From Bugula neritina (taxonomy: Eukaryota > Bryozoa > Gymnolaemata > Cheilostomatida > Bugulidae), in NCBI GenBank assembly GCA_964035545.1, contig OZ037766.1, forward strand, positions 29,595,140 through 29,659,139: a stretch of DNA of 64,000 bases. Reading direction: 5' to 3'. A program made the translations under genes and the position numbers. The notes below the pieces were generated by a model, which did no database searches, was not told the origin of the DNA, and worked only from the letters and a program-made list of their open reading frames with translations. This document shows, piece by piece, positions 36,777 to 56,164 of the stretch. Each line of letters opens with the position of its first letter. Within the stretch, counting starts at the first letter, position 1.

Positions 36777-38498
36777 TTACTGTCAACATAAAATAAAAGG
36801 TGTTAATAATTTTGTATTAAATTACATGCATTGTTGCAGTCATTTTGTCATAAAATACAGTTCAATTGTTTATGAATATAATAATATGCATCACTTGTTT
36901 TTAAATGTAACTGTCTAAACTATTGTTTTATGCTTAAAGTCAATTTCAAAAACTCACTCCTTTGCTTGAACCTTTGTATGAACCCTTGGATTTTCCTCCG
37001 GGGCCTGGAGGACCTGGGGGACCTTTTGGGCCAGCTGGACCTTTAGGTCCAGTATCTCCTTTAGGGCCTTTGGACCCAGCGCTTCCCTTACTTCCAGTGC
37101 TACCTTTAGGCCCCTTTGGTCCTGCAGGTCCTGTTGGTCCCTTTGGTCCAGTTGATCCTTTAGACCCTGATGATCCCTTTGAACCTTTAGGACCAGTTGG
37201 CCCCTAACAATGAAAGCAACTATAAATACAGTAAACTGCACCCTATTTTATAAATTGTCACTATAGATTTCTTTTATTGTAAGTGACTAATTAAATTAAT
37301 TTGTAGTATTGTAAAGTTATATTACACTTGACGGCTTTTAACCATTGACTAGCAAACAAATTTAATTCTATATGAGACATACCTTAGGACCAGGGGGTCC
37401 AGGTGGGCATTTGCAAGATCCATATGGAGTTCCTCTTTTCTCTCTCTATAAACATTGTCAAAATATAGTATATTTATTCAATTATTGTCTAAAAAAATAT
37501 TTTTTTCAATTTTTAGATTTTATTTACCACAATTTATATAAGCATAAACCCCAATAAAAAAACTATACCTTCTATATGTAGATCAATTGCAGAGTAAATA
37601 GTATCTATGCTTATATTCATTAATAAATACAATTTATGAGTCTTATAACGTACCACTAGTTGGCTAGTATTAGCATTAATAGATAGTTTGGCAAGTTGAA
37701 CTTCCAGATATCCAATCTTTTGGTTCTCCTATATAACATTGTATATTATTTTATATTTTATTATGCGATATTATATTATATGCTATAATATACTATGCTA
37801 TATTATAGCATATTTTGTTACATAAATTATATAAATGAGTTAACCCATGAAATAAAACATAAAAAATAAACGTAGCGCTTAGCAAACCTTTTCAAGTAAT
37901 TATTTTTGAAGCAATAACTTCATTTACAAAAATCAGAAAAAAGCAGCTATATTATTTTGGGCAGTCAAATTTTTTCCTATCAATACAGTTTTGAATATTT
38001 TCAAATGATTATAACTTTATCTCACATTTTAAATGAAATAAAAGATAAAGTATATTGCACATTTTTAACTAAAGTTTAAATAGCTTTTGACTTTATAAAG
38101 GCTCACTTGTATATTGAAAAAGTTTAGGCATATATACTAATGAAAATTGCAATCATAGAATGAAAGTGCAGTAATTAGGAACACAAATTAAAAGTTAGAA
38201 TAAGTTTTAAATATAAAAACTTTTCAGTATTGTTTTGAAGAAATAGCCTTTATTTATAGTACAAATAGAATATCTTTAGTCATTAGTTTGGAAAATGATA
38301 CTTAAATTTTTTTACTATTACTACACAAGTACTAAGTTATAGCCAGACCTGATCAAAATGTTTTAACATGTATCCAAACATAAGCATGTTGGCTACTATT
38401 AAGCCAACCACAAAGATAGCAATCAAAAAGCTTCCATAGCCATAGGCCTTGATTTTAGCTTCATTCGAATGTGGTATAAGCAAATCATATTTCTCCAT
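36777..38498 (-). CDS. Collagen gene A: membrane-anchored mini-collagen, 178 aa
   Basis: Coding exons on the minus strand are 38498-38349, 37728-37654, 37445-37383, 37203-36958 and 36779-36777 (the last starts with the stop codon). The first 50 residues hold a short N-terminus with basic residues and YGYG, then one hydrophobic helix (about 22-45), so a type II membrane topology is expected. Exon 3 has [11 protein letters not shown] with hydrophobic residues at 0, 3, 7 and 10, a short coiled coil. Exon 4 starts REKRG, a furin-type cleavage site, followed by [14 protein letters not shown]. Exon 5 carries 23 more Gly-X-Y triplets and a basic tail of KGS-type repeats. It resembles a miniature of membrane collagens (types XIII, XXIII and XXV) or ectodysplasin in layout. 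A shed trimeric collagen peptide is inferred. AATAAA follows the stop at about 36766-36761. Confidence 0.85.
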
Positions 38499-38764
38499 CT
38501 ACATAACAAAGATACAAGGTTTAGAAATTAGAAAGTAATAACAATTATTTTATCCGAATTATCATTGTTCAGCATCGAACTGTTTTATTTTATTACTTTT
38601 GAACTGGTAATTTTTAAAAAAATATGTCTTCATTGTTAGAAAAAAATTGTTAAATAAAATTTGTGAAGCTTGAAACAATTACCACTAAGTATTGGCTGTG
38701 CACATGCATGAAAATCTACCTATGTATAATATACAAGTATTATAGCATAATATTTATTACTTAC

Positions 38765-38853
38765 TTTGCTGGTGTAGTGGGTGTAGAGAGATGATACCAG
38801 AAACTTCAAGGTTATGTACTCTGTAGTGTAATTCTGGTATTAAGACTTATATA
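38765..38853 (-). promoter_or_regulatory. Core promoter and non-coding leader exon of collagen gene A
   Basis: On the minus strand there is TATATAAG at 38853-38846. About 30 bases on begins a leader containing GTTTCTGGTATCATCTCT that ends at 38765 in CAGCAAA|GTAAGT. The same arrangement precedes genes B, C and D. The leader has no ATG; the ATG comes immediately after the next acceptor. Confidence 0.7.
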
Positions 38854-39645
38854 CCACCCAAATGCGGAAATCCACTATAATTATTGCGTAAAGTTGCCAC
38901 AAGGCGCTATTTAAACAGTGCTAAGCTTAAATCATCAGCTTATTTGTATCTCTTAATACAACTGCTATGATATTGTATGCACCATCTTTAAAACCAATAA
39001 TCATGCATTTGTACAATGAAGATAAATGTAGATTAAATGCGAGAGCTACCGCATTTGTGTTGTAATGATAAAGCAATATCATGTGTTTTTTAGAATGTTT
39101 TGACACTTTGGTATTTAACAATGTTTATATTCACATCTATACTGTAATTCATCTTATTAGCATAACAGCATATATAATAAATCTGATATTATATGTACTT
39201 TGTCTCGCTCTTATCTTAGTTATTACAAAATAATAATTTGGTGCATTGCCCCTTCTATCATTTTTTATATATAAACTATATTAAATATAGCTTTTCTCAC
39301 ATTAATTTATTGCACATTATATATTATGCATCAGGTTATTTACACTTCCACTATAAAACTAGACATGTGCATCGGATTATCAACATCTGCATGGAGCTGG
39401 TTATTGGTTTCATTTTACCTCAGTTTACAAAGAAGTTCCTTGTGTGGACCACAATTTATTATACATATTTCTAAACTGAAAAAGAAGGTAGTTAGAGCAT
39501 ACAAAAAATTATGCCCAGAGGCATTTATGCAAAGCAGTTCTATAACTACTTAGAATGTACCCTTAGCATCTATTGTAACATAGCCATTTAATAAAGTGGA
39601 GCACAGAGGCTTCAAATAATTTCACACATCAACATTTTAATTAAA

Positions 39646-53740: not shown

Positions 53741-55809
53741 TTACTGTCAACATAAAGGAAAACATTTAAGATATATTATAAATTCTCATATATTAATTGT
53801 TACTGTAAATATACCATGTTATTATAAGCATTTTCTTATATATGACATATTAATTTTTATTTAAAATGAAGTTTGTAAACTTACACCATGGTATGGCCCC
53901 TTAATTTTTCCTGGGGGTCCAGGGGGTCCACGAGGTCCTTTGGGGCCAGCTGGACCTTTAGGTCCAGTATCTCCTTTAGGTCCTTTGGGTCCAGTACTTC
54001 CCTTACTTCCAGTGCTACCTTTAGGCCCCTTTGGTCCTGCAGGTCCTGTTGGACCCTTTGGTCCAGTTGATCCCTTAGAGCCTGGTGATCCCTTTGAACC
54101 TTTAGGGCCAGTTGGTCCCTGTGACATTATTATAAGCAATTATAAATAATAAGTAAACAAACACCTTAATTCACTCATAAACTATGTCTATAGAGATATT
54201 GTTTTGTTTTTAGGCATCTTTTATTGCTGTTAAAGTAGCTTTATGTCTGTTAATTTTCTTCAACTAATAAAATTATAACAAGCAGTCTTATATTTATAAG
54301 ACTCACCTTGGGACCAGGGGGTCCAGCTTTACATTTGCAAGATCCATAAGAAATTCCTCTTTTCTCTCTCTAAATGTTGCCAAAATAATATTAAATTAGT
54401 TGCGGATATATTGCCCTTTATAAAATCTGAAACTCTCATGCAGCTTATATATTGAGATACATGCATGTATGTCTAAACTTATAAACACACCTTAACACAA
54501 AACACCAGATGTTTCTTATTTAATAAAATTGTAATATATATATTCTTAACGCACTGAAACTTCTCCAGTTTTAGCATCACTTGCACCTACGGCTCCTTTG
54601 AGGTTACCATTAGATATTCTGGCAATTTCCACTTCCATTTGTCCGATTTTTTGGTTACTCTATATAACGCATGTTACAGATTAGAAGAGAACACAGTTAA
54701 ATCTGTCAATAAGTTATAATATTTTCTTACTATAGACACTTATACAAGCTACAAAATGTGACTTTATTTTAACAAAAATATTACTGATTTTTGCATGTGT
54801 TAAAGTGATTTTGGTATATATCAGCATCCTAATAATTATATTAGTTTAAATTATTGGTTATGCATTGCTGAATAGTCATTTATACTATCATTTATAAATT
54901 AGATTGAAACCTGTTTGCATGAATAGCCAAAGACTTTGAAAATAAAAAATGAATTGAAATATTATAAAGTTGAAAATTGAAAGTTAGTGCAAATAAGAAA
55001 ATTGTTCGTTAAAAAATTCTTAAAGCCGTAGTTGGATTTATTCAGAGAATGTTTCGAACTTATTTTTGAATTTAAATTGCATTTTAATGTGCTCCTAAAA
55101 TCAAATAGAAAATATTTTATAACAAGTTAATTTATTTAAACAACCTTTTAAATTATTTTTATAATATAGCAGTTATACTAAATCTTTTCATTTTAGAAAT
55201 TTGGCTTCTATAAAAAAAATAATTGCTGCACAAACAAATAAAATCACCAAAAATTAGTCAATTTAAGCAGAAATTTTTGCTAAAACATACCCCAATGCAT
55301 ATAGATTAAAAATGGTCTGTTAAATTTTTATGTATAATTTAATAAGAGTTGAACTTAATTTAGCTGCAGCAGAGTTTTAAAGTTTAAGACTTTAGAGGGT
55401 TATTTGTTTTTAGGATTACAACATATTGTATGATACACCAGTTTAAGCACATTTAAAAATGGCTTCAACTATAAAATTTAAATGGAATAACAGTTAATAT
55501 AATGTATAATTATATACAATAAGACGTGTAGCTTTAGATTGAAATATTATGTGATAATTTTTTGAATCGTAGCAGTTTTTAGTTTTATGAATTTATATTA
55601 GCCTAAAAGACAACGAGTTAACTTTGCTAAAATTAAAGTAATATTATATATACACTGACCTGATCGAACTGTTTGAACATGTAGCCAAACATAACCATGT
55701 TGGAGATGATCAAACCAACCACTAGTAAGCCAATCAAAGCACTGCCATAGCCATAGGCCTTTAGTTTAGCCTTGTTTGAATGTGCGATAGCCAGTTCAGA
55801 CTTTTCTAT
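53741..55809 (-). pseudogene. Collagen gene D: mini-collagen with ATA in place of the start codon
   Basis: Exons on the minus strand are 55809-55660, 54659-54555, 54369-54307, 54118-53885 and 53743-53741 (TAA). The frame is open for 184 codons. The membrane exon, IGQMEVEIARI coiled-coil core, [20 protein letters not shown] site and about 25 Gly-X-Y triplets are all intact, and the tail is short (KGPYHG). The first codon after the acceptor is ATA, where A, B and C have ATG. The leader has no ATG. The next in-frame ATG lies inside the membrane helix (about residue 36). The donor of exon 3 is taken as GTGCGT, which keeps phase 0. It may be a very young pseudogene, a gene using a non-ATG start or another first exon, or a sequence error at one base (plus-strand 55807). 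Because only one base is wrong, a functional allele may exist. Confidence 0.75.
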
Positions 55810-56081
55810 CTGGAATGTGTAAATACAAAGCTAAGAACTATCATCAAAACATGTTAAACAGTATGACTTGAAGCAGGTAAAAGCATCAATATTATTTAAG
55901 TTAAAGTATAGACATTTTAAGGCTCCTTAAATTTAACGCGGTTAGGCTACGTTTTTAAAGCAGATGTATATACATGAATATGTTAACAAGTATTTTCAAG
56001 CTCATCTTTATAATGTTTGTAACAATTACCACTAAATGTTTATTTATAGATGGTCCAAAAAACAATATAATTATTACTTAC

Positions 56082-56164
56082 TTTGCTGGTGTATTGGTTG
56101 TAGAGATGATACCAGAAACTCTAAGGTTACTCTGCTGTCTTATTCTGAAACTGAGCCTTTTATA
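56082..56164 (-). promoter_or_regulatory. Core promoter and non-coding leader exon of collagen gene D
   Basis: TATAAAAG on the minus strand at 56164-56157 and the shared leader GTTTCTGGTATCATCTCT, ending at 56082 in CAGCAAA|GTAAGT. The promoter looks as intact as that of B, so transcription may continue despite the lost ATG. Confidence 0.72.

Follow-up and report, generated by a model that had tools for sequence, protein, structure and literature searches.

Ectodysplasin A is a type II membrane protein with a furin site, a short collagen stretch and a terminal TNF domain, and the cnidarian minicollagens have a signal peptide, are secreted and carry Cys-rich domains that flank the helix. It is via these Cys-rich domains that the minicollagens polymerise (PMC4863159). 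In C. elegans, 117 of the 173 predicted cuticle collagens are predicted to be of the membrane type and RxxR is found in 64 of these 117 (PMC10538796); a type II helix followed by RxxR and then by collagen is the plan of 64 of the 173 (PMC10538796; see also PMC11304992). When RxxR was changed to AxxA in SQT-3 and DPY-17 these proteins were kept in the cell, though some protein reached the cuticle later (PMC10538796). Nematode cuticle collagens have two to three interrupted Gly-X-Y blocks and, in most of them, three Cys clusters (PMC11304992). The membrane-associated collagens with interrupted triple helices (MACITs) are also type II, have a coiled coil and a furin site in NC1 beside the membrane, and are shed in a furin-dependent manner; each has three COL domains with interruptions, the C-terminal 34 residues are conserved, the tripeptide WKP is given for the invertebrate members, and the same account reports them to be absent from Lophotrochozoa (PMC4678570). 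Here we describe four genes, A to D, that encode miniature collagens (minis) of a comparable layout on chromosome 2 of the cheilostome bryozoan Bugula neritina. The window analysed is the stretch of 64,000 nucleotides at C2:29595140-29659139, and positions are those of the window unless a chromosome is given. Among the literature matches listed, no bryozoan membrane collagen is named.

We consider it moderately probable, from what the sequence holds, that the minis belong to a family of bryozoan type II collagens that are sheddable, trimeric and strongly basic and would serve an extracellular coat, a family known so far only from the B. neritina genome. All four genes were found within 36946-55809, each with four coding exons and 176-191 codons, and the splice sites are canonical AG/GT and the coding introns phase 0 throughout (Table 1). 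As the first-pass annotation of this DNA had described them, the four paralogues have, in order, a membrane helix, a short coiled coil, REKR, CxC, a Gly-X-Y run and a short tail, and all four gene models bear this out. The exon plan is a 50-residue tail and membrane exon, a coil exon of 25-35 residues, a 21-residue exon that opens exactly at REKR and holds CxC and GPPGPK, and a collagen exon. Genes A, B, C and D have 26, 26, 25 and 26 triplets, including two encoded in the REKR exon; the earlier count of 23-25 thus becomes 25-26, while the single short Gly-X-Y run stands. This run is one uninterrupted block with 9-12 Lys at the Y position and one acidic residue, each protein has two Cys (one CxC, on the N side of the helix), and after the last triplet come 3-13 residues, none of them Cys. 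When A, B and C were scanned with the collagen profile PF01391 they scored 57.5, 63 and 63.9 bits, respectively, against a cut-off of 27.2.

The genome that was searched has 295 contigs and 215.85 Mb, and tzBugNeri2.1 as published has 320 scaffolds and 216.00 Mb (PMC11480708). The N-terminal part of gene B as a query gave eight matches in it, namely, the membrane exons of A-D, coil-exon stretches of A and B, C2:2368072, and C2:33066806. Around C2:33066806, 3.4 Mb from the minis, three larger relatives with an identical exon plan were found, genes E, F and G. The E query matched A-D at E values of 1.2e-8 to 2.6e-5 and the F query matched them at 1.4e-5 to 5.5e-3. Genes A-F have one Gly-X-Y block each and, unlike these, G is interrupted. 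The family has at least seven members, the collagen search of the genome having scored the best 150 of 1551 first-look candidates. The match at C2:2368072 (L009:3070-4740) is a decayed mini copy, and its promoter block is recognisable at C2:2368493-2368608. On the minus strand of the same locus, L009:8643-8864 holds a short secreted-looking Gly/Arg/Phe-rich peptide frame with the start MKVIAVLFAVCLALAAAA. Gene G ends in a Tyr-rich C-terminal tail (YGYKYSRMYGNYWVPTPSNNYGY, C2:33084650-33084814), which suggests tyrosine cross-linking.

The best membrane window is at residues 24-42 in each of A-D, with a mean Kyte-Doolittle value of 2.3-2.6. In all seven members there is one helix per protein, and the ten residues before it have a net positive charge and those after it a zero or negative one. 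The topology was judged from charge and hydropathy only, and these support a type II layout across the family, in agreement with the first claim of a membrane helix. The short coiled coil also held up, as a hydrophobic 3-4-3 spacing is kept in all four minis and in 7/7 family members. The register is I/V-x2-L/M-x3-I/L-x2-L/I and the a and d positions are hydrophobic in 28 of 28 cells. In 20,000 shuffle trials, at least two of the six genes A-F matched the fixed register 0.01% of the time, a figure to be read with the register having been picked after the sequences were viewed and the genes tested being related. The coil was called from residue spacing and the convertase site from its motif.

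REKR and CxC are present in 4/4 minis, and the constancy of REKR had been taken as a sign of selection. The minis alone are weak evidence for this because REKR is near-unchanged also in the DNA, its codons being near-identical among the four. The claim gained support once E, F and G were added, since these hold P4, P2 and P1 while P3 varies (E, E, E, E, E, T and V across the seven), which makes the case for a selected convertase site stronger. In the seven-row alignment, ten of the 44 ungapped columns between gene B residues 50 and 97 are invariant (Q50, R76, K78, R79, C86, C88, P93, G94, P95 and G97), and among the 37 ungapped columns of residues 51-88 only R76, K78, R79, C86 and C88 never vary among the seven members. 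A splice site directly precedes R-x-K-R in 7/7 members and, by motif and constraint, the R-x-K/R-R convertase motif lies between the membrane and the ectodomain. That R-x-K-R is a selected furin-type convertase site is supported by this pattern. The convertase P-domain has 12 matches in the B. neritina genome, and lysyl oxidase has 10 exon matches in two genome places, one of which is about 0.27 Mb from the window.

The fragment that would follow REKR in A-D is predicted to have 89-102 residues, an isoelectric point of 10.2-10.4, and 11-17 Lys and Arg versus 1-2 Asp and Glu. Such a small size and strong positive charge, and a helix that changes faster, are what would be expected if the cut product was not building material but a secreted signal or effector, that is, a short basic triple-helical ligand or an antimicrobial. 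We think this quite unlikely because there is no signalling domain and because the larger genes E-G of the same plan, with 129 to 259 triplets and, in G, 42 Tyr and the Tyr-rich tail, look structural.

If the minis are sheddable coat collagens, as we favour, then the basic stretch before the single helix would set the chain N-in, C-out in the endoplasmic reticulum membrane, the 3-4-3 coil past the membrane would gather three chains, the CxC pair would lock them by disulfides, and the helix of 25-26 triplets would zip from N to C. A proprotein convertase would cut after R-x-K-R, the site being seen in the sequence, and this cutting of type II collagens has precedent in the systems described in PMC10538796 and PMC4678570. 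The cut would leave the membrane helix and the coil on the cell and free a disulfide-tied trimer of very basic chains. With the standard helix rise the freed trimer would be a rod of about 20 nm. Such rods may bind acidic matrix, or cross-links via Lys or Tyr may join them in a coat that would lie outside the cell, probably on the apical side. Since the cleavage exon is symmetric, with phase 0 on both sides, skipping of exon 3 is predicted to yield an uncuttable membrane form.

How this layout relates to the described systems was compared part by part. With nematode cuticle collagens of the SQT-3 type, which are cut by BLI-4, the Bugula proteins share a short cytosolic end, a membrane helix, RxxR (in 7/7 members), Cys beside the helix and many paralogues, whereas those collagens have interrupted blocks, Cys clusters and Col_cuticle_N, and the minis show a single helix without interruption, a lone CxC and no PF01484 match. 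With MACITs (collagens XIII, XXIII and XXV; COL-99) they share a type II layout, a coil and a furin site, on the Bugula side as judged by spacing and motif, but MACITs have, comparing by description, three COL domains and a conserved C-terminal end and the minis have one helix and no C-terminal domain. A helix start of the CxC-PPGPPG kind is presumably a further resemblance to MACITs. Cnidarian minicollagens are likewise very short but have Cys-rich domains and a signal peptide in place of the two Cys and the membrane helix of the minis, and ectodysplasin A is type II with a furin site and a short collagen but ends in TNF and not in the few residues past the helix found here. The statement made at first that no described family has this layout is therefore true only in part, because the order of parts is published for nematode cuticle collagens and for MACITs; the length, the single uninterrupted helix, the lone CxC and the lack of detected homology do set the minis apart.

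This identical order of parts raises the question of whether the minis belong by descent to the MACITs or to the nematode-type cuticle collagens. We regard this as very improbable because Col_cuticle_N (PF01484) had no match in the N-terminal parts of A, C, D, E, F and G at E values up to 10 or in that of B at E values up to 1, because the helix is uninterrupted in A-F, and because no MACIT-like C-terminal domain is present. A genome-wide search with Col_cuticle_N also gave no match, yet its 14 controls likewise gave none. Descent from nematode cuticle collagens was set aside for lack of a Pfam match, and the WKP ending of gene C, which would point to a MACIT, was taken as a coincidence. Weak Pfam matches (DUF3333 and others, E values of 0.045-0.37) were regarded as noise from the membrane helix. 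The mini layout is close to that of roundworm cuticle collagens, and no sequence kinship was detected; a link to these or to MACITs may exist as weak homology below the reach of hidden Markov models.

Blast of the upstream stretches showed that a block about 180-435 bases upstream of the start is conserved among A-D. Between the block and the start, conservation is lost when A or B is one of the genes compared; C and D resemble each other over the whole length. In all four minis the block carries GGTATAWAAG and then, downstream, the donor CARCAAA/GTRAGT. Each mini gene is thus probably driven from a TATA promoter and begins with a non-coding exon that is spliced to AG/ATG. With the D block as query, five places in the genome were found, which are A, B, C, D and the decayed copy. 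In E and F, sequences like a TATA box and like a donor were seen upstream by eye. Spliced-leader trans-splicing, as might be read from AG/ATG in six of the seven genes and AG/ATA in D, was set aside for A-D given the TATA box and the donor-bearing first exon upstream.

The ratio of nonsynonymous to synonymous substitution (dN/dS) is 0.23-0.44 overall and is below 1 in 6/6 pairs of A-D. By exon, the six pairs gave 0.02-0.26 for exon 1, 0.17-0.64 for exon 2, 0.12-0.49 for exon 3 and 0.25-0.55 for exon 4, single-exon values being rough because the exons are small and some dS values are close to or above 1. Because dN/dS is below 1 and because the genes have a common block of promoter and 5' untranslated region, A-D are not a product of chance.

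Several observations weigh against the reading of a sheddable coat family. First, no homologue was found in the protein database (2, 1173 and 61 candidates for the N-terminal parts of B, F and G, with none at E values up to 10, 1 and 1, respectively), and no Bugula protein of the family surfaced either, so the database may lack it. Second, the coil has only about two heptads, and single shuffled coil exons match such a register in 1.9-7.5% of cases. Third, GPP makes up only 3-5 of the 25-26 triplets in A-D, so the stability of the helix is not assured. Fourth, the G query matched none of A-F in the genome (four matches, three in G and one elsewhere at an E value of 0.29), and because of this the membership of G rests on its layout, its position beside E and F, and the alignment. 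Fifth, the coil and collagen exons change faster, with dN/dS up to 0.64 and 0.55. Sixth, the membrane exon is conserved more strongly than a throw-away anchor requires. Lastly, the homologous start codon of gene D reads ATA (55807-55809, minus strand) and not ATG as in the paralogues; apart from this the gene retains its promoter, first exon and frame.

The cytosolic and membrane exon is the most conserved part of the minis, which would be accounted for if these proteins remain membrane-bound and act as receptors or adhesion rods, of the scavenger-receptor or collectin type, with R-x-K-R cut only in turnover or never, and the same genome does have a collagen cluster with a hydrophobic N-terminal segment, one with a C-type-lectin-like end by eye. 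It is, however, unlikely that they do so, since only 3-13 residues follow the last triplet and no C-terminal binding domain is there, and since R-x-K-R and the cysteines are equally invariant in a stalk that otherwise changes. A mixed life, in which cut forms and uncut forms lacking exon 3 exist together, would reconcile shedding with the conservation of the membrane exon.

In gene D the next in-frame ATG codons are at residues 38, 40 and 44, inside or just past the membrane helix. Gene D, doubtful as an intact gene, is either dying, a null allele or started at a non-AUG codon. Between C and D, exon 1 differs with a dN of 0.008 and a dS of 0.47, so the change of the D ATG is recent, if it is a loss. 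The lost ATG and the decayed copy elsewhere are what decaying tandem copies without function would leave, but that A-D are such copies is extremely improbable because dN/dS is below 1 in every pair and because all four genes retain their reading frames, splice sites, TATA box and non-coding first exon.

Table 1. Features of the mini genes A-D (window positions) and of their larger relatives E-G in Bugula neritina
Feature	Position	Strand	Size or content	Basis
Gene A	38498..36946	-	181 aa	
TATA box, A	38846..38855	-	GGTATATAAG	conserved block
Probable non-coding first exon, A	38765..38825	-	approximate start; donor GTAAGT	inferred from conservation
Tail and membrane helix exon, A	38349..38498	-	50 aa, with ATG	gene model, hydropathy
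Coiled-coil exon, A	37654..37728	-	25 aa	gene model, residue spacing
REKR exon, A	37383..37445	-	REKR at 37434-37445	gene model
Collagen exon, A	36946..37203	-	with tail and stop	gene model, triplet count
Gene B	45349..44024	-	181 aa	
TATA box, B	45635..45644	-		conserved block
Probable non-coding first exon, B	45556..45614	-	approximate start; donor GTGAGT	conservation
Tail and membrane helix exon, B	45200..45349	-	with ATG	gene model, hydropathy
Coiled-coil exon, B	44724..44798	-	25 aa	gene model, residue spacing
REKR exon, B	44457..44519	-	REKR at 44508-44519	gene model
Collagen exon, B	44024..44281	-	with tail and stop	gene model, triplet count
Gene C	49703..51597	+	176 aa	
TATA box, C	49345..49354	+		conserved block
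Probable non-coding first exon, C	49375..49429	+	approximate start; donor GTAAGT	conservation
Tail and membrane helix exon, C	49703..49852	+	with ATG	gene model, hydropathy
Coiled-coil exon, C	50838..50936	+	33 aa	gene model, residue spacing
REKR exon, C	51154..51216	+	REKR at 51154-51165	gene model
Collagen exon, C	51379..51597	+	with tail WKP and stop	gene model, triplet count
Gene D	55809..53861	-	191 aa	
TATA box, D	56157..56166	-		conserved block
Probable non-coding first exon, D	56082..56136	-	approximate start; without ATG	conservation
Tail and membrane helix exon, D	55660..55809	-	ATA at homologous start	gene model, hydropathy
Coiled-coil exon, D	54555..54659	-	35 aa	gene model, residue spacing
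REKR exon, D	54307..54369	-	REKR at 54358-54369	gene model
Collagen exon, D	53861..54118	-	with tail and stop	gene model, triplet count
Gene E			484 aa; REKR, CQC; one block, 129 triplets	
Gene F			496 aa; RTKR, CYC; one block, 129 triplets	
Gene G			913 aa; RVKR, CTC; interrupted, blocks of 8 and 251 triplets; 42 Tyr	

Other collagen sequences were seen elsewhere in this genome. At C4:17046588-17078585 there are stop-free collagen frames of 3466 and 2994 codons, apparently single exons, that is, giant collagens. At C3:16595869-16727254 (L035 and L038) there is a cluster of collagen matches, and two places read in it show a hydrophobic N-terminal segment and a coil-like stretch; L035 has by eye a C-type-lectin-like segment and a likeness to collectin-type scavenger receptors. 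In the window itself, exons match a family 10 fucosyltransferase (14461-15207), a 4HBT_2 thioesterase-like protein (9561-9905) and a RING finger (59644-59853), and long simple repeats of TG/CA and TC/GA are found at 41770-42140 and 62790-63130.

The suggestion of a role in spicule or spongin matrix, which had presumed a sponge, is not supported because the host is a bryozoan. We tentatively propose, as a possibility well short of the confidence given to the family itself, that bryozoans evolved independently a system like that of the nematode cuticle, in which a graded series of type II collagens (25-26, 129 and 259 triplets), released by convertases, would make an apical coat, the minis being short, highly basic linker rods and the cleavage exon an optional switch between shedding and staying. 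Sharing its order of parts with the MACITs and having no detected link to them in sequence, the bryozoan family represents either convergence on a means of building an outer coat or an old family that has changed greatly, and in both cases its members would be very small natural substrates for studying how convertases control the release of collagens.

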